From: Hyphomicrobium sp.
Lineage (GTDB): Bacteria > Pseudomonadota > Alphaproteobacteria > Rhizobiales > Hyphomicrobiaceae
Direction: 5' to 3'
NCBI RefSeq assembly: GCF_019753045.1
Contig: NZ_JAIELN010000006.1
Coordinates: forward strand, 62,001-126,000
DNA: 64,000 bases
Shown: positions 5,560-44,000 of the stretch, one piece after another
How the letters are laid out: each line of letters opens with the position of its first letter
Numbering within the stretch: position 1 is the first letter of the stretch
Made by a program: the position numbers and the translations under genes
The notes under the pieces: generated by a model
The model's database searches: none
What the model was told of the DNA's origin: nothing
Seen by the model: the letters and a program-made list of their open reading frames with translations, nothing else

Positions 5560-5580
5560 GGATGATGTAACTGCAAAGGC

Positions 5581-5616: not shown

Positions 5617-5707
5617 GTTTACTGCACCGATGTGTGCGCGACATGCGGCCGAGCGGGCTTCGCGGGCTGAACCGAAATTCAACGCAACCCAAAAAGGTCA
5701 AAGAATA

Positions 5708-7516: not shown

Positions 7517-7522
7517 CATTCC

Positions 7523-8728: not shown

Positions 8729-8757
8729 ATCGATCAACGCATTGGAGGATGACGACT

Positions 8758-9741: not shown

Positions 9742-9819
9742 GCGTTTTTGCCGACTCGACGCCTTCGTCTTCGCACGAAAAAGAAAAGCGGCGGCCGTTG
9801 CCGAGCCACCGCTTGCTAC

Positions 9820-9850
9820 TCAATCGAGAGACGGGTTTGTACTCGATTGA
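9820..9850 (+). terminator. Hairpin at the end of the xoxF locus
   Basis: A perfect 9-bp inverted repeat, TCAATCGAG (9820-9828) with CTCGATTGA (9842-9850), spacer 13 bases. It lies between the forward-running propeller gene and the reverse-running receptor relic. It lacks a proper T-tract, so a bidirectional terminator is only a suggestion. Confidence 0.45.
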
Positions 9851-9895
9851 TAGAATGCTATCGAGACGCCCGCCGAAGCCGGCGCCTGTCTGCGA

Positions 9896-26237: not shown

Positions 26238-27260
26238 CTACTGATCGAACGCGAAAATCCGTTTCCAATCATTCTTCATGCTGACAACGATCCAGCCGTT
26301 GCTCTTGGCCTCGTCCATCAATGCGTCAGTGAATGTTCCGACTTTTGATTCCGGCCCGTAAGCGTATTCACGTTCGGCGTCGTCGTGATGCACGAGCAGC
26401 ATCAAGCGAGCGCCGCCGCCTGCCTGGGTGTATTCCAGCATCTCTCTGTCGCCGATCGAGTTGCCAAAGGCTGCAACGGGGCGCTGCCCGATGACGAAGT
26501 GGATGCCTTCGGGTTTGCCGGCTTTGTCATCATTGAGCAGCAGCTTGGGCACCTTGGTGAGGACCGGCTTACCAGCTGTGTCGTAGCCGAATTCCGTCGC
26601 GCCCGCGCTGCCGACCACCTGTTCCGGCGGGACGCCATAAACCCTCTGGGCGTAGACGCGCACGAAATCCTGGCCACCGCCGGTAACGAAATAGGTCTTG
26701 TAGCCATTGTCACGGAAGAGGCGCATCACTTCGAGCATCGGCTGATAGGTGAGATCCGTGTACAGCCGCTTGAAACGGGGGTGTTTGGCCTCTTCGATCC
26801 ACGTCTTCACTTCGGCGTTGAAAGCTTCGACCGTCATTCCGGAGAGAGTAGCGCCGAGGATCTTCATCAGATCCTCTTTCGGCAACTTCGCCATTGCTTC
26901 CCGGTCGCCGGACAGCACGGTCTTGAAGGGTTCGACGGATTTCAGTTCCGGCTTTTTCTCCACCAGTGCCGGGACACGGTCGAGGCAGTACATCACCTGC
27001 GCGTACATTGGCTGCTCGACCCACGTCGTACCGTCCTGATCGAACGTAGCGATCCGCGCATCGGGCGATACGAACTTGGGGTTCGCCGGGTCGGTTGTGG
27101 CTTTTACGAATTCAATTATCGCCGTTTTGGCTGGACCGTCGTTCCACGATGGTAGCGGGTCGACCGCCTGTGCCAACGACACGTACGGCAGCAGCAGGAT
27201 CCCGACGAGCGTGCCGAGGGCCAGTAGGGCACTACGCAAGCGGTGATCATTACGCTGCAT
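26238..27260 (-). CDS. Exported HAD-superfamily phosphatase-like hydrolase
   Basis: A 340-residue protein. Signal peptide to about residue 31 (SLAQA). HAD motif I is ATFDQDGTTW (nucleophile and acid/base aspartates DxD), motif II is in YFVTGGGQDF, a lysine lies in KPEGIHF, and motif IV is in AFGNSIGDREML. This arrangement is that of class I HAD phosphatases carried to the periplasm. Members of this exported group are often annotated as haloacid dehalogenase-like hydrolases without known substrate. The ATG at 27260 is chosen because 29 upstream codons are polar and precede the signal peptide. Confidence 0.85.
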   Translation of the reverse strand: MQRNDHRLRSALLALGTLVGILLLPYVSLAQAVDPLPSWNDGPAKTAIIEFVKATTDPANPKFVSPDARIATFDQDGTTWVEQPMYAQVMYCLDRVPALVEKKPELKSVEPFKTVLSGDREAMAKLPKEDLMKILGATLSGMTVEAFNAEVKTWIEEAKHPRFKRLYTDLTYQPMLEVMRLFRDNGYKTYFVTGGGQDFVRVYAQRVYGVPPEQVVGSAGATEFGYDTAGKPVLTKVPKLLLNDDKAGKPEGIHFVIGQRPVAAFGNSIGDREMLEYTQAGGGARLMLLVHHDDAEREYAYGPESKVGTFTDALMDEAKSNGWIVVSMKNDWKRIFAFDQ

Positions 27261-27409
27261 GATGATGATCTCCGATCTCTGATGACGGCCGCTAGCAGCC
27301 GATTCTGAGAAACGTGAGATCGTAATCGTTGCAGCGTGCAGTCGCACGATGAAGAGCGATTGTTTCGTTAATGAAACTGCAATCCGCGCGACCTGCCGAC
27401 AGGGCTTTC

Positions 27410-28330
27410 TCAGAAATGCAAGGTCGCGCCTATGACCGGACCTTGCTGGAGGACATTGAATTGGTATTCGGTGTTTCCAGAGCCTTGCGAATAATCAACC
27501 GACAGTGCGCGATAGCCGAGATAGCCATCGACGACGTGACCGTCCGCCGTGCACATTTTCCAATTATAGGTAGCGAGAACTTGCCAAGTTGGATCGCTGC
27601 CGACACCGAACCCTCCGACGTCGGCGCGAACCATGAGTTCTTGTCCCGGCGCGATCTGATTGCGCAGTCGCCCTCCGATAAACGGATCGACCCAGTCGAC
27701 CGACCCTGATCGCGCCGTGACCCGATTGCCGGAGACAGAAAGGTCCCCGATATTCGCGCTCGCAGAGACGTTAGCGGTGACATCCGCAGCCTGATGCCAG
27801 TAGCGGCCGCCGGCAAGAAGATCGAGCGCAGTAGATCCCGTCAGCACCGGATTGCGGCCGGTCCAGACTTCGTAGGCACCGCCGAATTCAACGATCACCT
27901 CCTGGTAATCCACCGAAACGGCGCCTCCGAGCGAGGAGTCGATTATTTGGCGATCGGATGCACGAGCAAAACTCTTCGCGCCGCTGATGTTTGCGTACAC
28001 AATGTCATTGAAGAGACTTACCGGGCCGTTGCGCGCTTCTGCGTAGCTCATCCAAGCCGGCAGCGTCGACCAATCGAGATGGCTGATAATTTCGCCTGCG
28101 GTAGCATTCACATCGAAGGTGCGTCCCCTGACTGCCATGTTTCCCGACAGCCAAGGTATCCAGCCGTAGGTCGTGAAAACGAAGGTCCATTCGCTCGTTG
28201 GAGGAGGCGGCTCTGTGAGGCGGCGTTGTTCCACGCTTCCGAGGTCGGAAGCGAGGGCGGGGCCGGAGTAGGCGGAAGCCAGAAGAGATAGAGAAGCGGC
28301 CAATAATATATTCGTTCGGATGAAATTCAT
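27410..28330 (-). CDS. Outer-membrane beta-barrel protein, unknown function
   Basis: A 306-residue exported protein. Signal peptide to about residue 27 (PALA). The mature part has alternating beta strands rich in aromatic residues and Gly, for example TFVFTTYGWIPWLSG, EVIVEFGGAYEVW and YQFNVLQQGPVIG, and ends in Phe (ATLHF), the outer-membrane insertion signal. Its start (WTFVFTTYGWIPWLSGN) resembles a widespread family of hypothetical alphaproteobacterial outer-membrane proteins. The 224 bases upstream hold no gene. Confidence 0.8.
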   Translation of the reverse strand: MNFIRTNILLAASLSLLASAYSGPALASDLGSVEQRRLTEPPPPTSEWTFVFTTYGWIPWLSGNMAVRGRTFDVNATAGEIISHLDWSTLPAWMSYAEARNGPVSLFNDIVYANISGAKSFARASDRQIIDSSLGGAVSVDYQEVIVEFGGAYEVWTGRNPVLTGSTALDLLAGGRYWHQAADVTANVSASANIGDLSVSGNRVTARSGSVDWVDPFIGGRLRNQIAPGQELMVRADVGGFGVGSDPTWQVLATYNWKMCTADGHVVDGYLGYRALSVDYSQGSGNTEYQFNVLQQGPVIGATLHF

Positions 28331-28554
28331 TTGTCCGACCTGTGCAAAATCGAAATTTTCAAATCAATATCCGAACTATACCATCAGCGTGCGGAGCGAA
28401 CGTCACCGCTCCGCCACAGCCATTGCGTCCGATGCAATAAATCAAGGTCAAGGAACAGATTCGGTTGATCTTCGCCGCGAGCCGAAACGATGCGAATATC
28501 CTCATCCGCGAACTCAACGCGACGATGATAATCGTGCGGGTCAGGATGCAGCGT

Positions 28555-29142
28555 TCAAGCGAGGCCCTCTTGCCTCAGCGCGATGTCCACGGTGGGGCGC
28601 GCGCGCATGTGTTCGGCAAGTGTCTTCAGCGGCTTCGGCACGTCTATTCCGATCTTCTCAGCCCAAAGTAGCGTGACGAAAAGATACGCGTCGGCGACGG
28701 TTGCGTGCTCGCCGAAGATGTAAGGCCCCTTAATGCGAGTAGCCGCGTAGTCGAATCTCTTGCGGATCGCGTCGAGGGATTTCGCTTTGTTCTTCTCAGT
28801 CGTGGCGGGATTGAAAAAGGGCCCAAAGGATTTATGAATTTCGCTCGAGATGAAGGAGAGCATCTCAAGAAGTCTGTAACGGCCGAACTGGCCAGGCGCC
28901 ATGAGAGCGGGGTATTTGTCGGCAATGTAACTCAGAATGGCGATGTTCTCGGTGAGGACCTCGCCGTCATCGAATTGAAGCGCCGGGACGTAGCCCTTTG
29001 GATTGATATCGAGGTACGAGCGGCCATCGTCGACCTTGTGGGTTTTGAGATCGACTTTCGCGAGATCGAACTTCATTCCGGCTTCGATCAAGGCGATGTG
29101 GTCTGAGAGACTGCAGGCTCCGGGCGAGTAATAGAGGATCAT
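28555..29142 (-). CDS. Glutathione S-transferase, beta-class-like
   Basis: A 195-residue GST. The thioredoxin-fold N-terminal domain has YYSPGACSLS with Cys10, the residue that replaces Ser/Tyr in bacterial beta-class enzymes, followed by NPKGYVPAL with the cis-proline and DGEVLTENIAI with the glutathione-binding Glu. An all-helical C-terminal domain follows with GEHATVADAYLF. The ATG at 29142 is chosen over one 31 codons upstream. Function: conjugation or reduction with glutathione; substrate unknown. Confidence 0.9.
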   Translation of the reverse strand: MILYYSPGACSLSDHIALIEAGMKFDLAKVDLKTHKVDDGRSYLDINPKGYVPALQFDDGEVLTENIAILSYIADKYPALMAPGQFGRYRLLEMLSFISSEIHKSFGPFFNPATTEKNKAKSLDAIRKRFDYAATRIKGPYIFGEHATVADAYLFVTLLWAEKIGIDVPKPLKTLAEHMRARPTVDIALRQEGLA

Positions 29143-29313
29143 GGATTTGCTCCTTGGTCGACAAACCCGCTCTAGCGGGTAGCCGTTCCAGGCATCCTTA
29201 CAGCGGGGGCTCAAATTTAATTGGCGCCTAACCAAGAACTGCGACGGGGCTCGTCGTTTCCAAACTGCGGCTTAGTCTCGCTGAATTGTTGGGTGTCTAA
29301 AGGAGTTTTTCGC

Positions 29314-29529
29314 ATGTCAAAGCATTCAATTTTTGCAGTTGTAATTGGTCTTTCTGCACTGGCTGCGCCAGTCGCGGCGGATGCTCATTGCCTCGGCCTC
29401 GATGGGGTGGGGAGGGGCGTCTCCGGGGTATTCGATCGCACCACGGGCTTCGTGCGCGGGGTCGGCTACCGGACTCAAAGATTGGGCGATCGCATGTTTG
29501 GTTGGCTGAACTGCGGTCGGGTTCTGTGA
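29314..29529 (+). CDS. Small secreted protein, unknown
   Basis: A 71-residue protein with a strong ribosome site (AAAGGAG, 29299-29305) before the ATG at 29314. Signal peptide to about residue 23 (ADA), leaving a mature peptide of about 48 residues with two cysteines (AHCLGL near the start, LNCGRVL at the end) that could form one disulfide, and several Gly/Arg. Not recognised. The hairpin just after its stop supports it being a real, separately transcribed gene. Confidence 0.65.
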   Translation: MSKHSIFAVVIGLSALAAPVAADAHCLGLDGVGRGVSGVFDRTTGFVRGVGYRTQRLGDRMFGWLNCGRVL

Positions 29530-29543
29530 GCCCTATAGAAATA

Positions 29544-29572
29544 CGGCGGCCTCATTGATTTTGAGGCCGCCG
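29544..29572 (+). terminator. Hairpin after the small secreted protein
   Basis: A perfect 11-bp stem CGGCGGCCTCA (29544-29554) / TGAGGCCGCCG (29562-29572) with a 7-base loop lies 14 bases past the stop. The T-rich side is on the left, so it reads better for the reverse strand, and could serve both converging transcripts. Confidence 0.6.
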
Positions 29573-29686
29573 ATTAAAGGCGGGGCTGGAGATGAGCTTC
29601 AGAAATCTTCAGCGAGAAATTTCATCGCGTCGTCTGTCATCCCATCAGTTTATACGCGCTGTGATCAGCAACGACGGGGTGGATGT

Positions 29687-30391
29687 TCAGTTGATTGGCG
29701 GCACGGTCAGCTGGGTGCTCTGGCGATCCAGTTTCGGATCGAGGGCTGAGGCAGTTTTGAAATCTCGATCTGCCGACTTGAGGTCTCCCGCGTCGATATA
29801 GGTGTCGGCGCGCACGAAGTACGCCAGAGCGTATTTCGGGTTGAGCGATACGGCGGCGCTGAAATCGTCAATGGCGGCGGCATAATTGCCCTGCATTTTT
29901 AAAGCAACGCCGCGATTGAAATATACGACCGATTCTTTCGGGTTAATTTTTATTTCGCGCGTATAGTCCGATATGGCGGCATTAAGATCCCCCTTTTTGC
30001 GGAAACAATTCCCCCGGTTGTTATACACGCGAGGATAAAGTGGCTCCAATTCAATTGCCTGGTTATAGTCGTCTATCGCGTGGTCGCAATCTCCGATGGC
30101 GGCGTACACGATGCCCCGTCCTACGTAGTAATAGGGTTCAGGGCTGATCTTTGCTGCGCTCGAGAAGTCCGCGATTGCGTGTTGAAAGTCGCGTTTTGCG
30201 AAGTATCCCAACGCGCGGTTGCCATAATATATTGCGAGATTGCGCGGGTTTGACGATTGAGACTCGATCATCACCGTGCAGCCCGCGATATGGGCGTCTG
30301 GGCTTGTCCCATTGTCGCAATCAAACGCTGCGTCTGCAAAGGCGGGGCCGCATAAAATGAAAAATAGCAATGTAATCGCAATATAGCGCAT
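29687..30391 (-). CDS. Exported TPR-repeat protein
   Basis: A 234-residue protein. Signal peptide residues 1-19 (GPAFA). Residues about 45-220 contain five or six tetratricopeptide repeats, for example ALGYFAKRDFQHAIADFSSA, YNNRGNCFRKKGDLNAAISD and YFNRGVALKMQGNYAAAIDD. An N-terminal cysteine pair (DCDNGTSPDAHIAGC) resembles that of periplasmic Sel1/TPR proteins in rhizobia. Probably a periplasmic scaffold; partner unknown. The start at 30391 removes eight polar residues before the signal peptide. The 280 bases upstream (30392-30671) show no gene or clear signal. Confidence 0.85.
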   Translation of the reverse strand: MRYIAITLLFFILCGPAFADAAFDCDNGTSPDAHIAGCTVMIESQSSNPRNLAIYYGNRALGYFAKRDFQHAIADFSSAAKISPEPYYYVGRGIVYAAIGDCDHAIDDYNQAIELEPLYPRVYNNRGNCFRKKGDLNAAISDYTREIKINPKESVVYFNRGVALKMQGNYAAAIDDFSAAVSLNPKYALAYFVRADTYIDAGDLKSADRDFKTASALDPKLDRQSTQLTVPPIN

Positions 30392-30671
30392 GTTGTTTTC
30401 CTCAAAACGAGGCAAAGGCGAAAGCAGTATTTTCCGAAAATATTCGAATATAATTTCTGGCGAAATCGCGCCGGATGGAATCAGAAGATACGCGATATGC
30501 GAGTCATATCAATATCGAATATGAGATCTCCCCAGGCTTAAGTGCAACCGCGGTGAAAGCGAACCGTTTCCCGTAACGGTCCGCATACTGCTCATCCGGC
30601 CAGGTGCTTAGTGGGAGCCGCTTGGATTAAAACGGGTGGGGGATCGGGCGATCCGAGCTCGAAATGCATAA

Positions 30672-31457
30672 ATGCGGCGTTACGTTCAGATAGTTGGTCG
30701 GAAGTTTATGAAGCAGCGCGTCTGGCTCGGGGGCCGAGATCTGGAATTCGAGGGTGAGCAGGGAGATATCTATTTTGCGAATATCGCCGCTTTGGCTCAG
30801 GGCGGCGGCGAGCGTCATCTGGCGAGATTTGCAGCGCGGCATCTGCATGCGGCGAGTGTATGTTTGGACATCGGCGCGAATATAGGGCTGACGACTGCGA
30901 GCTTAGCGTTGGCCTGTCCAAAGGCCCATGTTTATGCTTTTGAGCCTTCTACGAGGAAGGCGATGCGTTTGCGCAGCAATCTCTCGGCCAACCGTTTGTC
31001 AAATGCGACCGTCGTCGAGTGTCCGGCCACCGCCGAGAGCGGAAGCCGCGCGGTGATGGATACAATCGATAACTGGTCCGCCTCGGTCTCCTCACCGGTC
31101 GATTTCATAAGATTGAATGTCGAGGGGAATGAAGCGAAAGTTTTGGCGGGGGCCGCCGAGACGCTCGTTCGAGATCGTCCTGTGATTTTCATGGAGTTCA
31201 ATTCCGTCGCGATTGCCTTCGAAGCGAGGCGGAGCCCGCTCTCCTTTGCCGAGACGATCTGGGGATTGTTCGATGTCTTCGTGGTCGATGAAGACGGAAG
31301 ACTATGGGAGCGCGATGCGCGTGCATTTGTTCTCGATAACATGCTGCGCCATAACTGCATCGACGACATCGTTCTGGATCTTAAGCCCGATCAGGATGCG
31401 CGGTCGATAAGGGATGCCTTGGCAGTTGAGTTTCGCGCAGAATGTGCGGCCGCTTGA
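30672..31457 (+). CDS. FkbM-family methyltransferase
   Basis: A 261-residue SAM-dependent methyltransferase. The SAM-binding motif I is VCLDIGANIGLTTASLA, followed by YAFEPS (acidic loop), and the FkbM signature is in FIRLNVEGNEAKVLAGA. The family O-methylates sugars, peptides or lipids. The region between motif I and the FkbM core is shorter than usual. Start uncertain: ATG at 30672 or at 30708 (MKQRVWLGG), the latter with GGAAG nearby. No glycan or peptide genes are adjacent, so no substrate can be suggested. Ends in a strong shared terminator. Confidence 0.8.
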   Translation: MRRYVQIVGRKFMKQRVWLGGRDLEFEGEQGDIYFANIAALAQGGGERHLARFAARHLHAASVCLDIGANIGLTTASLALACPKAHVYAFEPSTRKAMRLRSNLSANRLSNATVVECPATAESGSRAVMDTIDNWSASVSSPVDFIRLNVEGNEAKVLAGAAETLVRDRPVIFMEFNSVAIAFEARRSPLSFAETIWGLFDVFVVDEDGRLWERDARAFVLDNMLRHNCIDDIVLDLKPDQDARSIRDALAVEFRAECAAA

Positions 31458-31557: not shown

Positions 31558-32448
31558 TCAAAGCGGATCACGCTGCAGGGCCTGGCAAAGACAATGCGGT
31601 CCGCCGCCGCCCAATGTGAACATGGAGAGATCCGGATCGTAGACTTCGATCCCGAGCGCGCGCATGCGTGCGTTGAGGTCTTTGTTAGCGGCTGTCGAGA
31701 GAACGCGATCATTTCCGAGGGCGACGATGTTCGTGCCGAGCTGCGTGGAGTCATGATAGGAGACGGGCAGGATTTCGTAGCCCTTGGATTTGAGGAGATC
31801 CAGGAACCACCGCTGATGTGCATCCGGCGCGACGGCAACCAGCTTCTCGTTGATGAAGCCGACCGAAACATCGAGGTGCACGAAGTGCGGCGGGAATGGA
31901 ACGGGATGAGCTTCCCACCCTTCGGCGGTAAACCACTCGCACATCTGCTCCGCTCCTTCTTTTTCGGAGCGCTCGCCACCATAGCCGCATAAAACGAAGC
32001 CCGGCTCGACGACCATGAAGTCGCCGCCCTCGAAATGGCCGGCTGTGATCATGTTCCAGATTGGAATTCCGGCTTCCTGGTAGAACTTGAATGTCAGAGC
32101 GTAATCGCCGCGGCGAAAGCGCGTCTGCGGCATGGTGATGACGGCGCCGAAAGGCGTCATCACGCTCGAATCCCGGGCAAATACGCCATACTTGAGTTCC
32201 GGCCGTGCATCGAGCCAATGGCAGGTTACGCCGGCGCTCTCATAGACATCGACCATTGCGCGATGCTGCGACATGGCGAGCTGCGCGTCGAAGCGTAAGC
32301 CGAGCGCCAGCGTTTGCCGCGCGACGGCGCTGACGGGGCGCCACTCAAAGTAATCGGGCTTTCCGAGAAGGACGTGCCGCAGCACTCCGGTCTCGGAATT
32401 CAATCCCCAGGGAACGGTGTTGGCAACGGAAGGTGCGATCAAGCTCAT
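31558..32448 (-). CDS. Amidinotransferase-fold hydrolase (dimethylarginine dimethylaminohydrolase/arginine deiminase-like)
   Basis: A 296-residue guanidino-group-modifying enzyme. The catalytic residues of the pentein fold are present: Asp in FARDSS, Glu in HFEGGDF, His in HFVHLDVS and the nucleophile Cys near the end in GGPHCLCQ. Size fits DDAH-like hydrolases rather than arginine deiminase (about 400). It would hydrolyse or transfer a guanidino or amidino group; the natural substrate is unknown. The ATG at 32448 overlaps the DUF1989 gene by 4 bases. Last gene of the operon. Confidence 0.85.
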   Translation of the reverse strand: MSLIAPSVANTVPWGLNSETGVLRHVLLGKPDYFEWRPVSAVARQTLALGLRFDAQLAMSQHRAMVDVYESAGVTCHWLDARPELKYGVFARDSSVMTPFGAVITMPQTRFRRGDYALTFKFYQEAGIPIWNMITAGHFEGGDFMVVEPGFVLCGYGGERSEKEGAEQMCEWFTAEGWEAHPVPFPPHFVHLDVSVGFINEKLVAVAPDAHQRWFLDLLKSKGYEILPVSYHDSTQLGTNIVALGNDRVLSTAANKDLNARMRALGIEVYDPDLSMFTLGGGGPHCLCQALQRDPL

Positions 32449-33038
32449 GCCAGGACCTCGTAATGCGCGTCGGTCGGTGCGCCGGCATTTATGCGGACGA
32501 TGTCCTGCGGGCAGGCAGACATCGCGACGATGCAATCCATCTCGGCCTTGAGCACGACATAGTCGCCGGGCTTCGAGACCGGTTCTTCCCAGCCGATAGA
32601 GCCATCAGTTTTGATCGGAATGTTCATCCAAAGATTGAGCGGCGAGGGAACCTCGGACGGCGTCAAGCCGAGGCCCGCCATTCCAGCGCGGAGATTGTCG
32701 GCGCAATTTTCGTGATATGCCGTGCAGCCCAGGCCCTGGTAACGATAGATGTCGCAAGCGGCGATGAAGGTGTCGTGGATGCCCGGCGAAGAATCCGCTT
32801 CCAAGGACAGTATCGGCCGGCGCTTATTTGTCACGAGCTTGTCGCCAGGTTTTGGGCTGATCCTGTCGATCGCTGCACGCATATGTTCCATGGAGAGAAA
32901 TTCGCCAAGGTCATGCGCGTTGAAGGCCCAGGTATCGACGACCTGATGGCCATGGGTGTTCACAATTCGGATCGATTGTCCCGCTTTCAGAGCAACGGCG
33001 CGACCCTGTCGCGCGGGAAGCTGTTGGAGTTCGCTCAT
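32445..33038 (-). CDS. Urea carboxylase-associated family protein (DUF1989)
   Basis: A 197-residue member of the DUF1989 family, with VNTHGHQVVDTWAFN near the start, LGLTPSEVPSPLNLWMNIP and SKPGDYVVLKAEMDC. These proteins are often next to urea/guanidine carboxylase genes and have a cupin-like metal site (CTAYHENCADN). Here the partner carboxylase is absent; instead it sits between a creatininase and an amidinotransferase-fold hydrolase with 4-base overlaps on both sides. Reaction not established; carboxy-guanidine or amide hydrolysis is plausible by context. Confidence 0.85.
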   Translation of the reverse strand: MSELQQLPARQGRAVALKAGQSIRIVNTHGHQVVDTWAFNAHDLGEFLSMEHMRAAIDRISPKPGDKLVTNKRRPILSLEADSSPGIHDTFIAACDIYRYQGLGCTAYHENCADNLRAGMAGLGLTPSEVPSPLNLWMNIPIKTDGSIGWEEPVSKPGDYVVLKAEMDCIVAMSACPQDIVRINAGAPTDAHYEVLA

Positions 33039-33835
33039 GCCATCACCTGTGTCTTCGTCTTTACATTCGGGAATTCTTTGCGGATTGCGTCCGTGACGCC
33101 GATTGCATAATCGGCGGCGAGCAACTTTCCTTTCTCAGCCGCACAGCCGGTGGCCGGCGACAGCACGCCCGAGCACGGGACCCAGCCGGTTCGCGTCGGA
33201 TAGACATCGTAAGCGGGGAAGTCGGCCGGCTTGTCAGTGGGCAGCGCCGCCATGTCGACGAGTTCGGGATGATGGTAGAGCATCAGAGACGTCTCCATCA
33301 CGGCTGCATGTTCGAGAGCGAAGCCCGGGAAACCGTCTGGAAAAATCTTCTCGATTGTTTCCGTGCGCGTGAAATCCCAATACTCGAGCCGCAGCACTTC
33401 GAAATCGCGAATGCCCATGTATGAGAGTTCACGCATCGCAAGGTCGATGCCTTCGATCGAAAACATCATGTTTTCGTAGTGGCCGTTGATGAGGACGAGC
33501 CGGCGCGCACCGTGGCGCGCGAATTCCTTGATCACGTCCCGCAGAACGTGCGCGAGCGTATCGGCATCGAGGCTGGTGGTTCCGCAGTAATGATTGCCAC
33601 CGCCCATTTTCGGCTGCGACTTGTAGCCGAAGGCGACGGCCGGAGCGACGATGGCATCGAGCTGCTTTGCAACGTCGACGGCCACCGCCGTCGCCAGCAT
33701 CACATCAGTTCCCATCGGCAAGTGCGGTCCGTGCTGCTCGGTGGCTCCTACCGGCAACAGAATGAGAGCGCCACCTTCAATCCGCTTTTGGTAGGTGGTC
33801 CAGCTCATCTCGTTCATAAAAAGTCGGTCGCTCAT
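33035..33835 (-). CDS. Creatininase-family amidohydrolase
   Basis: A 266-residue metal-dependent amidohydrolase. The metal ligands of the family are visible: Glu and His in GATEQHGPH, Asp in PMGTD, His and Glu in INGHYEN, and a late Glu in VMETSL. The family opens cyclic amides (creatinine) or removes formyl/amide groups. The substrate here is unknown, but the adjacent DUF1989 and guanidino-hydrolase genes point to a guanidino- or urea-like compound. Starts 12 bases after the preceding SDR stop. Confidence 0.88.
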   Translation of the reverse strand: MSDRLFMNEMSWTTYQKRIEGGALILLPVGATEQHGPHLPMGTDVMLATAVAVDVAKQLDAIVAPAVAFGYKSQPKMGGGNHYCGTTSLDADTLAHVLRDVIKEFARHGARRLVLINGHYENMMFSIEGIDLAMRELSYMGIRDFEVLRLEYWDFTRTETIEKIFPDGFPGFALEHAAVMETSLMLYHHPELVDMAALPTDKPADFPAYDVYPTRTGWVPCSGVLSPATGCAAEKGKLLAADYAIGVTDAIRKEFPNVKTKTQVMA

Positions 33836-33847
33836 GTTTTCCTTCTT

Positions 33848-34564
33848 TCAAACCATCGAGGCGCCGCCGTTGACGCCAATTACCTGTCCCGTCATGAAGC
33901 TCGAGCCGGGGCCCGCGAGAAACAGCGCGGCTTCGGCGATCTCTTCCGGCTTGCCGATGCGGCGAAGCGGATTGGCCGTTTCGAGCGCCTTCCAGTCCGG
34001 CGGCATGTTGTCGAAGTCGAGCAGCGGCGTGTCGGTCGGTCCGGGAGCGACCGCATTGACGAGTATGTTCGGGCCGAATTCCTTCGCCCAACAACGCACC
34101 ATGGCGCTGATGCCTGCTTTCGACGCGCAGTAGGCAGCATGTTCTTCGCGGCCAAGCTGAGCGAGCTCAGAGCTGAACAGGATGATCCTGCCGCCGTTGC
34201 CGTGCTTCTGCATGGCGCGCACCGACTCACGAACCATGAGCAACGTGCCGATCAGATTGACGTCGAGAACTTTGCGCGCGTCGGCGATGGGCGTTTCGAG
34301 CAAAGGTGACATCAGAAAAATCGCCGCCGTATTGATCATGACGTCAATACCGCCGAGGGCTTCGTCTGCTGCCTTCACCGCCTCCACGACTTGCGCTTCA
34401 TCCGTGATGTCGAGCGTGAAAGACGGGCCAGCGCCGGCGGAGATAGGGCTTAGATCAAATCTCGCGATGCGAGCGCCTTGGGCTTCGAAGAGATTGGCGA
34501 TGGCGAGACCTATGCCGCTCGCCGCGCCGGAGACGATAACTTTTTTGTTTTCGAGCATGCTCAT
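33848..34564 (-). CDS. Short-chain dehydrogenase/reductase (second of pair)
   Basis: A 238-residue SDR. Cofactor motif VSGAASGIGLAIA; after the second strand there is an Asp/Arg (IARFDLS), which favours NAD. Active site Ser (LFSSEL), Tyr-x3-Lys as YCASK. The C-terminal GQVIGVNGGASM is that of classical SDRs. It overlaps the other SDR by 4 bases. Paired SDRs often oxidise an alcohol to a ketone in successive steps or with different stereospecificity. Substrate unknown. Confidence 0.88.
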   Translation of the reverse strand: MSMLENKKVIVSGAASGIGLAIANLFEAQGARIARFDLSPISAGAGPSFTLDITDEAQVVEAVKAADEALGGIDVMINTAAIFLMSPLLETPIADARKVLDVNLIGTLLMVRESVRAMQKHGNGGRIILFSSELAQLGREEHAAYCASKAGISAMVRCWAKEFGPNILVNAVAPGPTDTPLLDFDNMPPDWKALETANPLRRIGKPEEIAEAALFLAGPGSSFMTGQVIGVNGGASMV

Positions 34565-35331
34565 CCGAGAAATTCCCCGCGGTCGACGCCGATCGCTTGA
34601 CCAGTGATGTTGTTTGACAGGTCGCTTGCGAGGAAAAGATAGAGGCCGGCGACATCGGCGGGTTCCATCAAGCCGGGCAGCGCCTGCGCCGCGACGACGT
34701 CGGCGAAAATATCGGCTTCGCTTCGCTCTGAACGTTCAGCCATGGTTTTGGCGGAGCGTACGGAGGCGACGGTTCGTACCCACCCGGGACACACAGCATT
34801 GACAGCAATGCCGTGCGGTCCGAGTTCACGCGCGAACGTGCGCGTCAAGCCGACGACAGCGTGCTTCGATGCGATGTAGGCGGCGAATTCACCGACGGCG
34901 CTTTTAGCCCAGACCGATGCCGTATTGATGATACGTGCGCCGGGCTTCAGAAGAGGCAGTGCGGCGCGCGTGACGTTCCAAGTGCCGCGCACGTTGATGT
35001 CGATAATCCGCGCAAAGGTGGCGTCGACTTCGTCGCTTGGATCCGTCAGCGGCGTGATGAGTTCGAGTCCGGCGTTGTTCACCAGAACGTCGAGTGTTGA
35101 GATCGAAGCAAATACGGTTTGCAACGCAGTCTTGTCGGTGATGTCGGTGAAGAAAGCCCGGACCGGGCGTCCGCACGCATCCGACAGGCGCAATGCCGCA
35201 TCGGTAACGAGATCATCGTTTGCGAGGATCGCGACGTCGGCGCCTGCAATCGCGAACGCTTCCGCGACCGCAAAGCCGATGCCTCGACTGGCGCCCGTGA
35301 TGAGCACCGACTTATTTTGAAGGTTGATCAA
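34561..35331 (-). CDS. Short-chain dehydrogenase/reductase (first of pair)
   Basis: A 256-residue SDR with GASRGIGFAVA, LVNNAGLELI, active site Ser in NTASVW and YIASK, and the C-terminal GQAIGVDRGEFLG. It is 45% like its neighbour at a guess and probably arose by duplication, but this is not measured. It is upstream of the second SDR and 16 bases downstream of the ABC ATPase gene. Within this operon it likely oxidises or reduces the imported compound. Confidence 0.85.
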   Translation of the reverse strand: MINLQNKSVLITGASRGIGFAVAEAFAIAGADVAILANDDLVTDAALRLSDACGRPVRAFFTDITDKTALQTVFASISTLDVLVNNAGLELITPLTDPSDEVDATFARIIDINVRGTWNVTRAALPLLKPGARIINTASVWAKSAVGEFAAYIASKHAVVGLTRTFARELGPHGIAVNAVCPGWVRTVASVRSAKTMAERSERSEADIFADVVAAQALPGLMEPADVAGLYLFLASDLSNNITGQAIGVDRGEFLG

Positions 35332-35347
35332 GCTCTTCCTCAGGGTC

Positions 35348-36133
35348 CTATACTTTTTCTTCTTCCCCGGTCGCAGCGCGCACCATTCTAAGGATGCGCG
35401 TTCGAAGTTTGAAAAATTGCTCGCTGTCGCGCAGTGCGATCGTGCGATCCGGGCCCAGCTCCGCCGATATATCGACGTCTTCGAGCATGCGTGCGGGCCG
35501 CTTCGAGAAGACGACGATCCGGTCTGCGAGAAACACGGCTTCGTCCACGTCGTGGGTCACGAAAATAATGGTCTTCGCGTCCTGGCGATGGATGCGGCGC
35601 AACTCGAGTTGCAATCCTTCCCGCCGCTGGGCGTCGAGCGCGCCGAAGGGTTCGTCCATCAGGAGAACTTCGGAGCCGGCCGCAAGCGTGCGAGCAATGG
35701 CAATGCGCTGCCGCATGCCGCCCGAAACTTTGTTCGGATAGAAGTCGGCGAAGTCGGTCAAGCCAACGAGCTCGAGATAGTGATCGAGCCGCTTCTTCTT
35801 GCGCTCCGGCGTCATGTCGTGCCGGTACTTCATGCCGTAGGCGACGTTTTCCGAAACGGTCAACCACGGAAAAGAAGAGTATGATTGGAAGACCATGCCG
35901 CGCTCGCGATCGGGGGCGCCGATCGGCAGTCCATCCAGGCGTATTTCGCCGACGCTCGGTGTTTCGAGGCCGCCGACCATCCGCATCAACGTGGTCTTGC
36001 CGGAGCCGGATGGGCCGAGGAAGACGACGAATTCGTTGCGTTTGATGGTGAGGTTGAAGAATGGAGCGACGACTTCGAGATCGCCGAAGTATTTGGCGAC
36101 GCCATCGAAAACAAGATACGGAGCGGGAGCCAC
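35348..36133 (-). CDS. ABC transporter ATP-binding protein (nitrate/sulfonate/NMT1 type)
   Basis: A 261-residue ATPase. Walker A is GPSGSGKTTLM, the Q-loop follows in MVFQSYSSFPWLTV, the signature is VSGGMRQRIA and Walker B is VLLMDEPFGALD with the H-loop in FVTHDVDEA. This arrangement belongs to the TauB/SsuB/NrtD group. It pairs with the permease and binding protein upstream for import of a small solute. ATPase-specific features give no clue to the solute. Confidence 0.93.
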   Translation of the reverse strand: MAPAPYLVFDGVAKYFGDLEVVAPFFNLTIKRNEFVVFLGPSGSGKTTLMRMVGGLETPSVGEIRLDGLPIGAPDRERGMVFQSYSSFPWLTVSENVAYGMKYRHDMTPERKKKRLDHYLELVGLTDFADFYPNKVSGGMRQRIAIARTLAAGSEVLLMDEPFGALDAQRREGLQLELRRIHRQDAKTIIFVTHDVDEAVFLADRIVVFSKRPARMLEDVDISAELGPDRTIALRDSEQFFKLRTRILRMVRAATGEEEKV

Positions 36134-36143
36134 TTTGCGCCTC

Positions 36144-37016
36144 TCAAAGATAGCGGAACAAGCGCTTGTGAACGAGGCGCAGAATCTGGTCGGTGACTAG
36201 GCCGATCAATCCGATCGCCACCACTCCCGCCATGACTTCCGAAGTGTTCATGTAGCGGCGCGCTGCCCAGATGACGAAGCCGAGGCCGGTGTCGGCAGCA
36301 ACGATTTCCGCGATGATGAGGTAGGTCCAGCACCAGCCGAGCGTGATGCGCAGATTGTCGAACAGGCTCGGCAGCATCGCCCGGAAGGCGACGTCCGTTA
36401 GCATCTGCCTCGGCCGTGCGCCGACTGTATAGGAAATCTCGACGTATTCCTGGGGTACGCGGCGCATGTCGTCAGCGACGAGCAGCACGAGCTGAAAGAA
36501 TGTGCCGAGCCAGAGTAGGAAGATTTTCGTCGTCTCGCCGACGCCGAACCAAATGATGCTGAGAGGCACGAGCGCCGGGACCGGCAAGTAGCGGATGAAA
36601 TCCACGATCGGCTCGAGTGCGGCGCCCACGCCGCGGAAGCTTGACATTGCGATGCCGATGGGAACCGCCATGATGACGGCTAGCGCAAATGCAACCCATA
36701 TGCGCAGCGTCGAGATACCTGCATGCATCAGCAGGTTCTTGTGAAGGATCATGTTCCACAGCGTCTCGAGCGTGACGCTCGGCGGCGGGAGGAAGGTTGC
36801 GTTGATCAATCCGAGGCGGGTCGAAAGTTCCCACACGGCCAAGACGAACAGGGTCGAGCCGATGGCGGTGAGGATCTGTGCGCGTTTCGAAAGCGTTCCG
36901 CGAAATGCGAAGAACTGATTGCGTGGAGGATTTCTTCGCAGAGGACGCGGCGTGGATGCCGCGTTCGCGGCCGGCGCGTGAGGCGCCGCAGACACTGTCG
37001 CTTTGATGATGGTCAC
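36144..37016 (-). CDS. ABC transporter permease (nitrate/sulfonate/NMT1 type)
   Basis: A permease of about 290 residues (from GTG at 37016) with a basic N-terminal tail, then six hydrophobic helices and the coupling loop EYVEISYTVGARPRQML. It matches the SsuC/TauC/NMT1 class. Start uncertain: the frame is open to 37094 through a run of nine G residues (37059-37067) and the intergenic space. The next possible start codon, an ATG at residue 92 in the first helix, is too far in. Eleven bases separate it from the ATPase gene. Confidence 0.85.
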   Translation of the reverse strand: MTIIKATVSAAPHAPAANAASTPRPLRRNPPRNQFFAFRGTLSKRAQILTAIGSTLFVLAVWELSTRLGLINATFLPPPSVTLETLWNMILHKNLLMHAGISTLRIWVAFALAVIMAVPIGIAMSSFRGVGAALEPIVDFIRYLPVPALVPLSIIWFGVGETTKIFLLWLGTFFQLVLLVADDMRRVPQEYVEISYTVGARPRQMLTDVAFRAMLPSLFDNLRITLGWCWTYLIIAEIVAADTGLGFVIWAARRYMNTSEVMAGVVAIGLIGLVTDQILRLVHKRLFRYL

Positions 37017-37103
37017 GCGATGATCCCGGAGACGGCTCTGTTGACTGTTGATTGCGCCGGGGGGGGGCGCTCCGTGGAGCGTTCCGCCCGGCACCGACTT
37101 AGT

Positions 37104-38138
37104 CTACTTCAGATCGGCTTCGGTGATACCGGCGACAATCGAATTATCGATCTGCTCGGCGGCTTTGAGGTTGTTCTCGGCAGCGCCATTCTCGATATTG
37201 AGCTGCATCACCTCATCGAAGGTTCCGTACAGCGTGCCGGGAGCGCCGGGCTTGCCGAAATAGCCGGCGTTTTCCTTGTGCCCGGTATAGACCAAGCTGC
37301 CTTCGATCGAGGCCGCGAACTCGTCTGGCGTCAAGTTGAAGTGCGGGGCCGCGAGCTTGATGAAGTCGGCCTTGTTCGTGTTGAAATATTCGACCGCCTT
37401 GAGGATGCCGATCATGAACTTCTTGTACTTCTCGGGATTGGCTTTGAGATCGTCCTGACGGGCGGTGATAATATCGACGATGATGCCCGGGTATTGCGCC
37501 GACGAGACCAGAATGTGGGGCTTGCGGCCCGGGACCTTATCGACGGCCTGGGACAGGTACGGCTGGTAGGATACGACCGCGTCAATCGACGAATCCGTCA
37601 GGATGGCGACGGTGTCGGCGGTCGCGATCTGTTTGACGACGAGATCGGACAGGGAGATGCCCTTCTTCTTCAATGCCATCTGGAGCAGCAAGCGCCCCGG
37701 AATGTTGGGCTCCGATGCAACGGTCTTGCCCTTCAGCTGTTCGACGGACGTGATTTCACCCGGGGTGATGACGCCGTCGCCGCCAAGCGATTCGTCGATG
37801 GTGCCGATGATGATGCCGGGGGTTTGGGCGTCACGCGGCTTGCCCTGATACTCGCCGACCGTGCGCATATCCATTTCGATGTCGCCGCGCGCCATGGCTG
37901 CCATGACGTTCGCGCGTTCATCTTCGAACTTGATGCTGACGTTGATGCCGAGCTTCTTGAAGTATCCGAGGTCCTGCGCCACGAAAACGGGGGCGAAGCC
38001 ACTCCACGTCGGGCAGAGAATCCGGATGGTTTCGTCGGCCCGCGCCGCAGTCGCGGCCAGCGACACGCTCAATCCCAAGGCCATCGCAAATCCGGCCCCG
38101 GCAACTCGCCGGACGTTCATCGTCATGTGCATCGGCAT
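37104..38138 (-). CDS. ABC transporter substrate-binding protein, NMT1/SsuA-like
   Basis: A 344-residue exported binding protein. Signal peptide to about residue 34 (ARA). The NMT1-like fold is shown by IRILCPTWSGFAPVFVAQDLGYFKKLGINV, ARGDIEMDMRTVGEY and LKGKTVASEP. Such proteins bind thiamine-pyrimidine, sulfonate, nitrate, taurine or other small solutes; the ligand here is not deducible. It is the first gene of an eight-gene operon and is divergent from a LysR regulator, so it probably defines the inducer or substrate. Confidence 0.9.
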   Translation of the reverse strand: MPMHMTMNVRRVAGAGFAMALGLSVSLAATAARADETIRILCPTWSGFAPVFVAQDLGYFKKLGINVSIKFEDERANVMAAMARGDIEMDMRTVGEYQGKPRDAQTPGIIIGTIDESLGGDGVITPGEITSVEQLKGKTVASEPNIPGRLLLQMALKKKGISLSDLVVKQIATADTVAILTDSSIDAVVSYQPYLSQAVDKVPGRKPHILVSSAQYPGIIVDIITARQDDLKANPEKYKKFMIGILKAVEYFNTNKADFIKLAAPHFNLTPDEFAASIEGSLVYTGHKENAGYFGKPGAPGTLYGTFDEVMQLNIENGAAENNLKAAEQIDNSIVAGITEADLK

Positions 38139-38268
38139 ACCCCTAAATGATCAGACCACCCGTGGTGATGAAATCTCGGGTAAATTTACATCGAAACCAA
38201 TATTGATTATTGGAAGGATACATCGAAAACTGCCGATGTAATGATCGCAGGTGGTTGGAGAGGGAAGG

Positions 38269-39201
38269 ATGCGCCGGCTCGACAATATCGATATTCGCCT
38301 GCTCCGAGTGTTCGCGACGCTGGTGGAGGCGGGCGGGTTCGGCGATGCACAAATTGCGCTCAACCTGTCTCAGCCGACGCTCAGCACGCATCTGGCGGCG
38401 CTGGAGCGCAAACTCGGGGCGCCGCTCTGTATCAGGGGGCGGCGTGGCTTTCAGCTGACGCCGTTCGGTGAAGCGACCTATCTCGCAACGCAAAAACTAT
38501 TCGCCGATATCAGCTCGTTCGAAGAGCGGGTCAGCAAGCACAACGGGCAGCTCGTCGGGCGCCTGCGCGTGGGCATCGTCGACGGTGTCGTGACAAATCC
38601 CTATCTCGGTTTGCAGCACGTCATCGGCCGCTTCATGGAGAACGCCGAAAACGTCTTCATCGACCTGGAACTCGGCACGCCCCAGTTGCTCGAACAGGCC
38701 ATCGCGGACGGCCGCCGCGATGTCGTCATCGGGCCGATGTCGCAAAAGGTGCCCGGCGTCACCTATGTCGCCATTCATCGGGAGCCGCACGGACTTTACT
38801 GCGGCAAGGGCCATTCACTCTTCGATATGCCGCCTGCAGCGATTACGCGGGAAGCCATCGGGGAGTCGCTCTTCTCCGTCCGCGGCTATCGCCATCTCGA
38901 CGATCTTTATCGCGCCGATCATCCGCGCGCGACGGGTCAGGTGGTGCAGATGGAGGCTCAGGTGATGATGATCCTGTCAGGCCGCTTCATCGGCTTTCTG
39001 CCGCGCCATGTTGCCGAGGGCTGGGTGCGGCAGGGTCTCATGCGGGAGCTGAAGCCCCAGGCTTATCAGTTTCTGTCGAGCCATTTTGCCGCCTACCGCA
39101 AGAGCGACGACGACCGGCCCATTGTCCGCAGTTTCGTGCGCTTTCTCAGCCGGCACGCAAGTCAATTGCGCAAGCCGGCCGGCGCCGCGAAGACGGCTTG
39201 A
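38269..39201 (+). CDS. LysR-family transcriptional regulator
   Basis: A 310-residue LysR regulator. Residues about 5-64 form the winged helix (IDIRLLRVFATLVEAGGFGDAQ, LSQPTLSTHLAALERKLG). The rest is the periplasmic-binding-like effector domain (VGIVDGVVTN, VIGPMSQKVPGV). The ATG at 38269 follows GGAGAGGGAAGG; a GTG at 38251 is weaker. It is divergent from the ABC-SDR-creatininase operon with a 130-base AT-rich control region, the normal layout for a LysR activator of the neighbouring operon. Effector unknown. Confidence 0.92.
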   Translation: MRRLDNIDIRLLRVFATLVEAGGFGDAQIALNLSQPTLSTHLAALERKLGAPLCIRGRRGFQLTPFGEATYLATQKLFADISSFEERVSKHNGQLVGRLRVGIVDGVVTNPYLGLQHVIGRFMENAENVFIDLELGTPQLLEQAIADGRRDVVIGPMSQKVPGVTYVAIHREPHGLYCGKGHSLFDMPPAAITREAIGESLFSVRGYRHLDDLYRADHPRATGQVVQMEAQVMMILSGRFIGFLPRHVAEGWVRQGLMRELKPQAYQFLSSHFAAYRKSDDDRPIVRSFVRFLSRHASQLRKPAGAAKTA

Positions 39202-39223: not shown

Positions 39224-39970
39224 CTAGCTCTGCTTGGCGAGGGCGACGAGGACGGGCCGGAGTTCCTGCGCCGATTTCAGCGGATCGTCGAACCAGAGCC
39301 TGGCAACATCGTCTCCGCACGTCATATCAAGGCCTTCGGGGTCGATGGTCGCGAGACGCCAGCCTTCGGGGGAGGTCGCCCCAGATTTGACGGCGTAGCG
39401 CCCGACGGCGTCGGCGTGGTCGGCATTCATGTGCTCAACTGCGCCTTCTTCAGATTCGCTGAGCGATTGGAGGGCGTCGGCCGGCACTGCGAGGTCGCTC
39501 GCCGCCAATGCGTAAGCTCGGCCAAAGCCGCCGTTCAGCGAAGCGCGCGATGTTGCAAACTTCCAAAATGCAAAATCGGGGAAGTCGGCGTACAATGCGG
39601 CTTTCGGATTGCGCCTGAGAAATCGGCTTTTGACCGGCGCGCGTTCGGGACCCTGGCCAAGATTTTCGGCTGTTCCGATCAACGTCATGCGGGGATAAGC
39701 GAGTGGGTCGCCCTTGCCGGGCTCGCCGACCAGCAGCGAGCATCTGGGATCTGCCTCGAGGTTCGCAAAATGGCTCGAAAGCCGCGAGATGAGAAACACC
39801 GGCGAGCCGTCCATGGCGGTTGCGAGGCTCACGCGACTGACGGAGGGCGAGCCGTCAAGCGGATCTATGGTTGCCAGCGAAGCGTAACGGGCGGTGCGTA
39901 CGAGCGTTTTTGCCTGGCGCCGTGCCGCGTCATCGACGGGCTGCAGGACATCTTTCTTTTTCTCTGTCAT
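39224..39970 (-). CDS. HugZ-family heme oxygenase-like/pyridoxamine-phosphate-oxidase-fold protein
   Basis: A 248-residue protein with an N-terminal FMN-binding split-barrel (AARRQAKTLVRTARYASLAT, SPVFLISRLSSHFANL) and a C-terminal DUF2470-like segment with EEGAVEHMNADHADAV. This pair is the HugZ heme-degrading architecture; other family members have unknown oxidoreductase activity. The ATG at 39970 is chosen because the ORF upstream is poorly conserved and polar. No heme uptake genes are adjacent, so heme cleavage is a family-based guess. Confidence 0.82.
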   Translation of the reverse strand: MTEKKKDVLQPVDDAARRQAKTLVRTARYASLATIDPLDGSPSVSRVSLATAMDGSPVFLISRLSSHFANLEADPRCSLLVGEPGKGDPLAYPRMTLIGTAENLGQGPERAPVKSRFLRRNPKAALYADFPDFAFWKFATSRASLNGGFGRAYALAASDLAVPADALQSLSESEEGAVEHMNADHADAVGRYAVKSGATSPEGWRLATIDPEGLDMTCGDDVARLWFDDPLKSAQELRPVLVALAKQS

Positions 39971-40119
39971 TTTTTGTTGCCTAGCTCGTTTAAATGAAAC
40001 AGGGCGCTTGGCTAAGCTCGAACAAGCTTTTTGAATGGCTGCAGCGAAATCGATTTGATCCGCAAACCCTGGAGCCGGTTTTGTCACGAACAACGACCAG
40101 AAGAAAGGAGTGATTTCAA

Positions 40120-40605
40120 ATGGCTACTTCGCCAGATCTCACGTGCCGAGTTATTCGTGCGGCGGATACATATGATGGGAAGCAGGGTCTGACGTACTTC
40201 TGCGGAATTGCCTCCGAGACCGTTGGGTCGAAGGGCATCTGCATGCATCTCTTGACTGTCCCTGCTGGCGCGCGGGCCAAGGTGCACCTCCATGAAAATC
40301 ATGAGACGGCAATTTATATGCTGGATGGCGAGGTCTTGACGCTTTTTGGGCATCAGCTGGAGCACTGCATCCCGACGCGGGCTGGCGACCTCGTTTATAT
40401 TCCCGCGGGCATCCCTCATCTGCCGGTGAACCTCAGCGATAAGCCTGCGTCCGCGGTGATTGCGCGTACAGATCCCAACGAGCAAGAGAGCGTCGTTCTG
40501 CTCCCGGAACTCGAGGCCCTCGCCGAGGAGAAGATCGTGTCGCTGAAGAACTCGGGTGTCGGGCAGTCCCCGTTGCCCTCGGGTGCCGCGCAGGTGCAGT
40601 CATAA
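40120..40605 (+). CDS. Cupin-domain protein
   Basis: A 161-residue single cupin. Metal-binding residues: two His in HLHENHE and Glu, and a late His in IPAGIPHLPVN. AAAGGAG (40105-40110) stands before the ATG at 40120. The C-terminal 35 residues are helical (LLPELEALAEEK). Small cupins act as isomerases, dioxygenases or ligand-binding sensors; no specific function can be given. Confidence 0.85.
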   Translation: MATSPDLTCRVIRAADTYDGKQGLTYFCGIASETVGSKGICMHLLTVPAGARAKVHLHENHETAIYMLDGEVLTLFGHQLEHCIPTRAGDLVYIPAGIPHLPVNLSDKPASAVIARTDPNEQESVVLLPELEALAEEKIVSLKNSGVGQSPLPSGAAQVQS

Positions 40606-40712
40606 TCGCTCCAGTCATTCGCGACTTGACCTGCGGTTGGCCGGGGTGAAGGTGGGGCCGCTCTCGACGAAGATCGTCGCTCAAGCCGCCGGTTGATTTT
40701 GGGGAAGATGAA

Positions 40713-41570
40713 ATGCTCCGGATTTTGGCGCTCCTGGTGCTGTGGACTTTCGGTGCCGGTCACTGCGCCGCGACCGAGCGCGTTCTCACGCTCACTTTCG
40801 GCGGCGAGGCGCGACGCGTTACGGCTTCCGAACTTTTGGCCAGGCCGGATACAACTTTCCTGACCGTTCCAAAGGACGCCGCATATCACCGCGAAATGAA
40901 GTATCGCGCGGTGCCGTTGCTCGCGCTTTTGGGGTCAGCGTTGAATGGTGACTTCGATACGATCGAAGCGCGGGCCAGCGACGGATATGCATCGCAAATT
41001 CCGCGTGCGCTGGTGATGAAGAGTTCCGCGGGCGGCGCTGTGGCCTGGATTGCCGTCGAGGACCCGGCTGCGCCGTGGCCAAAGCTTCCGGGGCAGGCGG
41101 TCAGCGCCGGTCCTTTCTATCTGGTCTGGGAAAATCCCGAGCGTTCCGGGGTCGGCGATGCGCAATGGCCGTTTTCGCTGGTGTCACTGTCAGGGGGCGA
41201 AGATCCACTCAAGCGCTGGCCGCAAATGGCCGTCGATAGCTCGGTCGCCGCCGCCGCGCCTGAGCGGCGGGGACAGATCGTGTTCGCCAAGATCTGCATG
41301 TCGTGCCATCGCATCGAGGGTGCAGGAGACGGCGAGATGGGGCCTGACCTCGGTCAACCTATGAACGTCACCGAATACATTACCCCCAAGGGGATCCGCG
41401 GCATTATTCGCGATCCGAAGTCGGTGCGCACGTGGCCGCAGCAGCAGATGGAGGCCTTCGACGAGGCGGCGATTTCAAATGGCGACGTCGACGCGGTCAT
41501 CGCCTATCTCGCGTATATGGGTAAGCGCAAGTCCGCGCGAGACGCCACGCTTTCCAAACCGGCGCCGTGA
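40713..41570 (+). CDS. Exported cytochrome c fused to a molybdopterin-oxidoreductase-like N-domain
   Basis: A 285-residue exported protein. Signal peptide to about residue 20 (HCAA). Residues about 25-160 resemble the sulfite-oxidase-like molybdopterin domain in its outer segments (RRVTASELLA, KYRAVPLLALLG, GYASQIPR) but contain no clear cysteine ligand. Residues about 180-275 are a class I cytochrome c with the heme motif CMSCH at 195-199 and a methionine ligand candidate near QPMNVTEY. Similar proteins act as electron carriers for periplasmic dehydrogenases. Ends just before the lon gene, convergently. Confidence 0.85.
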   Translation: MLRILALLVLWTFGAGHCAATERVLTLTFGGEARRVTASELLARPDTTFLTVPKDAAYHREMKYRAVPLLALLGSALNGDFDTIEARASDGYASQIPRALVMKSSAGGAVAWIAVEDPAAPWPKLPGQAVSAGPFYLVWENPERSGVGDAQWPFSLVSLSGGEDPLKRWPQMAVDSSVAAAAPERRGQIVFAKICMSCHRIEGAGDGEMGPDLGQPMNVTEYITPKGIRGIIRDPKSVRTWPQQQMEAFDEAAISNGDVDAVIAYLAYMGKRKSARDATLSKPAP

Positions 41571-41576
41571 GTTGCG

Positions 41577-44000
<2,424 letters not shown>

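Follow-up and report, generated by a model that had tools for sequence, protein, structure and literature searches.

The described systems closest to the locus reported here are creatinine degradation (creatininase followed by creatinase, an M24-family protein), the guanidine carboxylase pathway (with the DUF1989 pair CgdA/CgdB and the uca system, which transports guanidine), the use of 3-guanidinopropionate by GpuA, and the reactions of arginine deiminase (ADI) and dimethylargininase (DDAH). Another is methylguanidine demethylation by MgdH and MgdL, which, according to the accessible part of its description, runs under guanidine riboswitches (PMC12508155). The sources and fates of guanidine and its derivatives in nature are an open question raised by these riboswitches. 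In this study, a 64,000-nucleotide stretch of the genome of Hyphomicrobium sp. (assembly GCF_019753045.1, contig NZ_JAIELN010000006.1, positions 62,001 to 126,000; the whole stretch is called the window below) was analysed for an operon of eight genes encoding an ATP-binding cassette (ABC) importer, two short-chain dehydrogenases (SDR1 and SDR2), a creatininase-like protein, a DUF1989 protein and a hydrolase of the pentein fold. We propose, with a probability of roughly 0.5, that this operon, under LysR control, serves the catabolism of a guanidino compound, acting through the steps set out below. That its substrate belongs to the guanidino class is, judging from sequence comparisons, very probable.

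The order of these steps (import, two oxidations, formation of a lactam, ring opening and guanidino hydrolysis) has about an even chance of being right. First, the ABC importer, composed of an NMT1/THI5-family periplasmic binding protein (37104..38138, on the minus strand as are all eight genes; Pfam PF09084), a permease (36144..37019; PF00528) and an ATPase (35348..36133; PF00005), would take up a substituted guanidine with a hydroxyl or aldehyde group. Second, SDR1 (34561..35331; PF13561/PF00106), putatively catalysing the first or the second oxidation, and its likely partner SDR2 (33848..34564; PF13561/PF00106) would oxidise the substrate with NAD(P); a guanidino-aldehyde may close on itself to give a cyclic hemiaminal, which would be converted to a creatinine-like lactam, i.e. 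a cyclic acylguanidine. Pyridoxal 4-dehydrogenase, which makes a lactone, is an analogue for the oxidation of a hemiaminal by an SDR. Third, the creatininase-like amidohydrolase (33035..33835; PF02633, TIGR04448), as the presumed opener of this lactam, would produce a guanidino acid. Fourth, the pentein (ADI/DDAH fold; 31558..32448; PF02274, PF19420), a candidate guanidino hydrolase, would attack the guanidino carbon to give ammonia and a ureido acid, or an amine. Fifth, the DUF1989 metalloprotein (32445..33038; PF09347) would cleave one further C-N bond of the series. The regulator is encoded divergently at 38251..39201 on the plus strand (PF00126, PF03466). An earlier note on this DNA, made from its letters alone, had named the same eight genes and families under a divergent LysR regulator, and open reading frames and Pfam bear this out; its outline of uptake, oxidation and stepwise hydrolysis is consistent with all findings, the functions being deduced. 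What was observed in favour of the proposal is the gene content, its conservation, the exchange of enzymes at the third and fourth steps, the conserved catalytic residues and, in sister operons, the riboswitches and transporter components that connect them with guanidine.

A pentein profile scan over one genome per species gave 97 relatives, the best 80 of which were taken as loci. Five of these best 80 of 97 (L052-L056) have all nine genes, that of LysR included, in identical order, with 96–98% identity in Hyphomicrobium facile DSM 1565 (L052), the nearest named record. The dN/dS values of the nine genes against the orthologous loci L053 and L055 are 0.05–0.15, and the operon is under purifying selection. 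Conservation, a check suggested in the earlier note, thus lifts the operon beyond chance: adjacency by coincidence was rejected because the whole gene order recurs in L052-L056, and a decaying operon was rejected by the dN/dS values. The LysR gene stays adjacent to the operon in these five loci and also in a distant alphaproteobacterium (G746) and in L222. L058 has all five enzymes in a different order and L057 has LysR, SDR2, DUF1989 and pentein. The other 73 loci (pentein 50–55% identical), some with flanks shortened by contig ends, have no creatininase-like or DUF1989 gene detectable at E 1e-6 in those flanks. Within six genes of the pentein, 12 of these 73 loci have a gene of the ureohydrolase cluster, and 24 have one from a cluster represented in the scan by a ProX-type binding protein.

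Two further observations concern the same genus and genome. A scar of the operon is present in G368 (L045 9335-9871), where the tail of the LysR gene runs into pentein pieces 87–88% identical to the window and the rest is gone. The genome of the window carries a second pentein cluster (L044 7885-16318; G000:C1) with a LysR gene, a pentein 51% identical, a polyamine-type ABC importer, SDR1-like (48%) and SDR2-like (33%) genes and, on the other strand, a deacetylase-type gene.

The earlier note had left the choice between guanidino-, urea- and cyclic-amide-containing substrates. The related loci favour the guanidino class, a cyclic amide being a likely intermediate, because (i) Guanidine-I riboswitches head all four sister operons of one type, (ii) uca (guanidine) binding proteins occur in three other loci and (iii) a 3-guanidinopropionase-like enzyme can replace the pentein. 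The operons of the first type (L217-L220) encode a binding protein, a fatty-acid-desaturase-family protein, SDR1 (except in L219), SDR2, a creatininase-like protein, a cysteine hydrolase and a protein of unclear family; a permease and an ATPase were detected in L217-L219. Their riboswitches score 76–82 bits (gathering score 63) and end 44–56 bases before the start of the binding-protein gene (the start in L220 being extrapolated), and each of the genomes has 2–3 Guanidine-I riboswitches. We know of no description of an operon of this type as a Guanidine-I riboswitch target. The cysteine hydrolase most resembles biuret hydrolase (247 bits, cutoff 370; 217 bits to a solved one). Guanylurea hydrolase is placed in the same superfamily in the available part of PMC12625717, and this type of operon may therefore release guanidine.

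The uca binding proteins were found in the clusters of L057, L058 and L230 (383–407 bits, cutoff 334). The exchange for the pentein was seen in G746 (single contig, 99% complete), where LysR, the importer, SDR1, SDR2 and the creatininase-like gene are followed by a ureohydrolase; no pentein was detected in this genome at E 1e-10. The ureohydrolase matches 3-guanidinopropionase with 444 bits, guanidinobutyrase with 316 and proclavaminate amidinohydrolase with 276, and its relatives (60–71%) come after the module in L222, L224, L226 and L229. This kinship hints at a three-carbon acid. The likeness to 3-guanidinopropionate use thus lies in a G746 enzyme that stands in the pentein's place and is closest to GpuA; the window operon, in contrast, has no ureohydrolase (the best relatives in its genome, 41% and 37%, are encoded on other contigs), and GpuA works on the acid only, with none of the oxidation and ring opening that these operons add. 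The resemblance to methylguanidine demethylation, as far as the accessible part of that report describes it, is that a guanidine derivative is oxidised ahead of a core pathway, by a dioxygenase and a lyase there and, putatively, by SDRs with a lactam hydrolase here (PMC12508155).

With the guanidine carboxylase pathway the window operon has a DUF1989 protein in common, and the sister operons add the uca binding proteins and the Guanidine-I riboswitch. It differs in that it has no carboxylase, CgdA/CgdB pair or allophanate hydrolase, oxidation would come first, and its DUF1989 gene is single rather than one of two (the UAAP models score it at 107 and 68 bits, with cutoffs of 285 and 206). One could nevertheless suppose that the operon frees guanidine from a larger molecule, with its DUF1989 protein acting like carboxyguanidine deiminase, since Guanidine-I riboswitches sense free guanidine. 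The genome of the window has one such riboswitch, on another contig, where a DUF1989 pair follows after about 3 kb, and next to the G746 operon lies another, headed by a riboswitch, with genes for a DUF1989 protein and the uca transporter. Against this supposition, which we regard as improbable, the window operon has no carboxylase gene, and a pentein or a ureohydrolase would break up the guanidino group instead of setting guanidine free.

The gene set appears to be modular: the SDR1-SDR2 pair is its usual core, as far as gene neighbourhoods indicate, and unrelated enzymes swap at two steps around the pair. With the creatininase-like protein as query, 398 genomes of the phylum yielded matches at 13 places, spread over 12 genomes, and all 13 places were read. 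SDR2 is near ten of these places (with SDR1 as well in eight of the ten), two have creatinase and one has neither. With SDR1 as query, 385 genomes of the class yielded 13 places, spread over nine genomes; SDR2 adjoins SDR1 at eight of these places and does not at five, one of which has a deacetylase gene instead. Neighbourhoods on plasmids were fetched for 7 of the 34 with a pentein match, 14 of the 33 with a creatininase-like match and 9 of the 16 with an SDR1 match.

Depending on the locus, ring opening is assigned to the creatininase-like protein or to a PuuE-like protein of the polysaccharide-deacetylase family. The top solved relative of the latter is an uncharacterised deacetylase (200 bits), and PuuE allantoinase scores 65 bits. 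This allantoinase-like deacetylase replaces the creatininase-like gene at the SDR pair, together with a SpeB-like gene, in six loci (L231, L237-L241), and is paired with a pentein in L044 (in the window's own genome) and L051. Each of the six loci is a compact run of SpeB-like gene, SDR1, SDR2 and deacetylase-family gene, and they reside on rhizobial and rhodobacterial plasmids (one labelled Roseateles). Their SpeB-like gene is closest to agmatinase 1WOG (189 bits) and is distinct from the ureohydrolase of G746. The enzyme for the N-C-N group varies likewise, being the pentein, the 3-guanidinopropionase-like ureohydrolase or the isochorismatase-family (biuret-hydrolase-like) cysteine hydrolase. 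None of these three was detected in L225, where the module is present, or in L230, which has an FMN-monooxygenase-family gene. The latter locus (3856-10233, on a Salipiger plasmid) is a single run of a uca-type importer, an NtaA/DmoA-type FMN monooxygenase, a creatininase-like gene and the SDR pair; its creatininase-like protein has Asn at the metal-ligand position His120.

The place of PuuE allantoinase among the relatives of the deacetylase-type ring opener, and the closeness of the L217-L220 hydrolase to biuret hydrolase, would also suit a ureido or hydantoin substrate, as in purine-type breakdown, instead of a guanidino one. Such a substrate is unlikely, however: pentein and ureohydrolase families act on guanidino carbons, Guanidine-I riboswitches are present in L217-L220, and the uca binding protein is encoded in L057, L058 and L230.

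The creatininase-like protein passes the NCBI creatininase model TIGR04448 (383 bits, cutoff 235) and retains the metal ligands E34, H36, D45, H120 and E122, so that what the operon shares with creatinine degradation is a lactam hydrolase of the creatininase family whose metal ligands are all present; loci for creatinine degradation often have an ABC importer and a LysR gene as well. The operon differs from these in having no creatinase, and the SDR pair, DUF1989 and pentein instead. Thirty-seven creatininase-family rows were sorted by their neighbours ("creatinase" being the M24-family gene beside creatininase genes), with L258 (creatinase adjacent) and L234 (a lone 30% SDR hit) relabelled by hand afterwards, and L054, a second copy from the L042 genome, was left out of the tree. 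All 12 creatinase-linked rows, including the solved structure 1J2T, have the flap residue Trp174, Ser78 and an H-G-G motif. Trp174 occurs in none of the 21 SDR-linked rows, which have Phe, Tyr, Met, Thr or Ile, and Trp occurs in all four other rows (L223, L234, L256 and L259). A tree built from 36 rows groups the 12 creatinase-linked sequences in a single clade (support 100/99), with the window protein outside it. The SDR-linked rows also lie outside and are spread over more than one branch, with long branches for L259, L058, L230, L234 and L245; the approximately unbiased test did not reject one clade of SDR-linked sequences (p 0.446), and neither a single origin nor several are claimed. Judged by these residues and by the tree, the CREATININASE-like window protein is different from the usual CREATININASE, and this key enzyme is probably mislabelled as creatinine-degrading. 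A creatininase label that crosses this boundary in substrate-binding residues would mislead the annotation of nitrogen metabolism. It was also observed that the creatininase-like matches in G399 (L056) and G1089 (L226) contain one and two stop codons, respectively.

A variant of creatinine degradation, in which creatininase would yield creatine, the pentein would stand in for creatinase and the SDRs would deal with a side product, can draw on the match to the NCBI model and on the retained metal ligands. Moreover, since the solved creatininase entry 3a6e also has Phe at position 174, Phe there is by itself no bar to creatininase activity. Such a variant is nonetheless doubtful and ranks as slightly less likely than the ureido and free-guanidine alternatives: the Trp174 pattern and the creatinase-linked clade set the window protein apart, its genome has no close creatinase (best 25%, E 4e-12; none in the operon), and the two SDRs and the guanidine riboswitches of the sister operons would be left unexplained. 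Creatinine degradation proper was rejected by the Trp174 pattern, the position in the tree and the lack of a close creatinase in the same genome.

The pentein has the catalytic set of arginine deiminase in alignment (D93, E140, H191, D193 and C286), invariant in 33 sequences, as are arginines 112, 113 and 160. The closest entries to its predicted model (pLDDT 75) are arginine deiminases, followed by an entry named nnhA, DDAH and amidinotransferases. It thus shares fold and catalytic residues with arginine deiminase and dimethylargininase, but its scores against curated models, whose cutoffs are 300 or more, do not exceed 69 bits. In L057 an M20 carbamoylase-type gene comes after the pentein gene, which fits a ureido product; a single strong carbamoylase-family member is encoded elsewhere in the genome of the window. 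The DUF1989 residues C95, H109, C112, C176 and D179 are invariant in 13 relatives and in trimethylamine N-oxide (TMAO) demethylase, whose domain has three zinc cysteines, a His and an Asp according to the available part of its report (PMC12560246). Among 40 stretches with DUF1989 relatives, many of them located on short contigs, a creatininase-like gene was also found in G746 (L181) alone. Sixteen of the 40 (L163, L164, L166, L167, L175-L177, L179, L182, L184, L188, L190, L193, L194, L196 and L197) hold genes of a cluster whose scanned member is an acyl-CoA dehydrogenase; the DUF1989 relatives there are about 48–64% identical, and several have SDR and carboxyltransferase-like genes.

Several points weigh against the proposed guanidino pathway. 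The cyclic hemiaminal and lactam step is chemical reasoning by analogy, and DUF1989 has no secure place in the sequence of reactions. The window operon has no riboswitch at the Rfam threshold, and its binding protein matches the uca model with 54 bits, far under the cutoff of 334. Among 18 other related loci, a Guanidine-I riboswitch was found in L202 (the G746 locus) alone, where it stands at the head of the adjacent operon. SDR1 is missing from L219, one of the four riboswitch loci, and from the L057 cluster, and the L057 genome has no creatininase-like gene. Finally, L217-L220 have the biuret-hydrolase-like enzyme, and a pentein or ureohydrolase was looked for in them and not detected; the chemistry of these operons may therefore be ureido rather than guanidino.

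It may tentatively be suggested, at somewhat less than even odds, that the operons belong to an undescribed, modular proteobacterial pathway by which substituted guanidines are converted to cyclic acylguanidines and opened, with one "creatininase" subfamily as its lactamase and some of its operons in the Guanidine-I regulon. If so, membership of that regulon would suggest that some naturally occurring guanidine derivative serves as a nutrient without yet being recognised as one. The operon family supplies a gene set, a riboswitch link and a step order to test in the type strain Hyphomicrobium facile DSM 1565. The claim that no described pathway has this gene set agrees with a literature search, for which the subscription literature was mostly outside reach: it gave no paper on the set, none combining creatininase, guanidine and riboswitch, and none combining DUF1989 and creatininase.

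The binding protein has a predicted structure of pLDDT 36. Its NMT1/THI5 family and its weak match to yeast THI5 (29 bits) would allow salvage of a thiamine pyrimidine or a similar heterocycle. This is highly improbable, as uca/guanidine binding proteins belong to the same broad family, the comparative links point to guanidine, and the Rfam scan of the 64-kb window gave zero elements at threshold, a riboswitch of the thiamine pyrophosphate type included. The thiamine pyrimidine was rejected on this last result.

With stop codons included in the coordinates of all eight genes, 4-base overlaps were counted at three of the seven joints (SDR1/SDR2, creatininase/DUF1989 and DUF1989/hydrolase), one fewer than the four of the earlier note. 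The remaining four joints are gaps of 84, 10, 16 and 12 bases, and a permease start at the GTG at 37094 would shrink the first to 9. SDR1 has dihydroanticapsin 7-dehydrogenase as its top solved relative (122 bits). Between the LysR and binding-protein genes lies an inverted repeat, TACATCG-N8-CGATGTA (38219..38240), which an alignment of upstream regions shows to be partly conserved in L052-L056 and G746 and which is likely a LysR operator. Promoter- and terminator-like patterns showed no excess over shuffled sequences. The host is a methylotroph-type soil bacterium. The flanks of the operon look unrelated to it, with a HAD-like protein, a GST, a TPR protein and an FkbM methyltransferase at 26238-31457 and a CREG/PNPOx-like protein with DUF2470, a cupin, a cytochrome c and, judged by eye, a Lon-like protease at 39224-44000.

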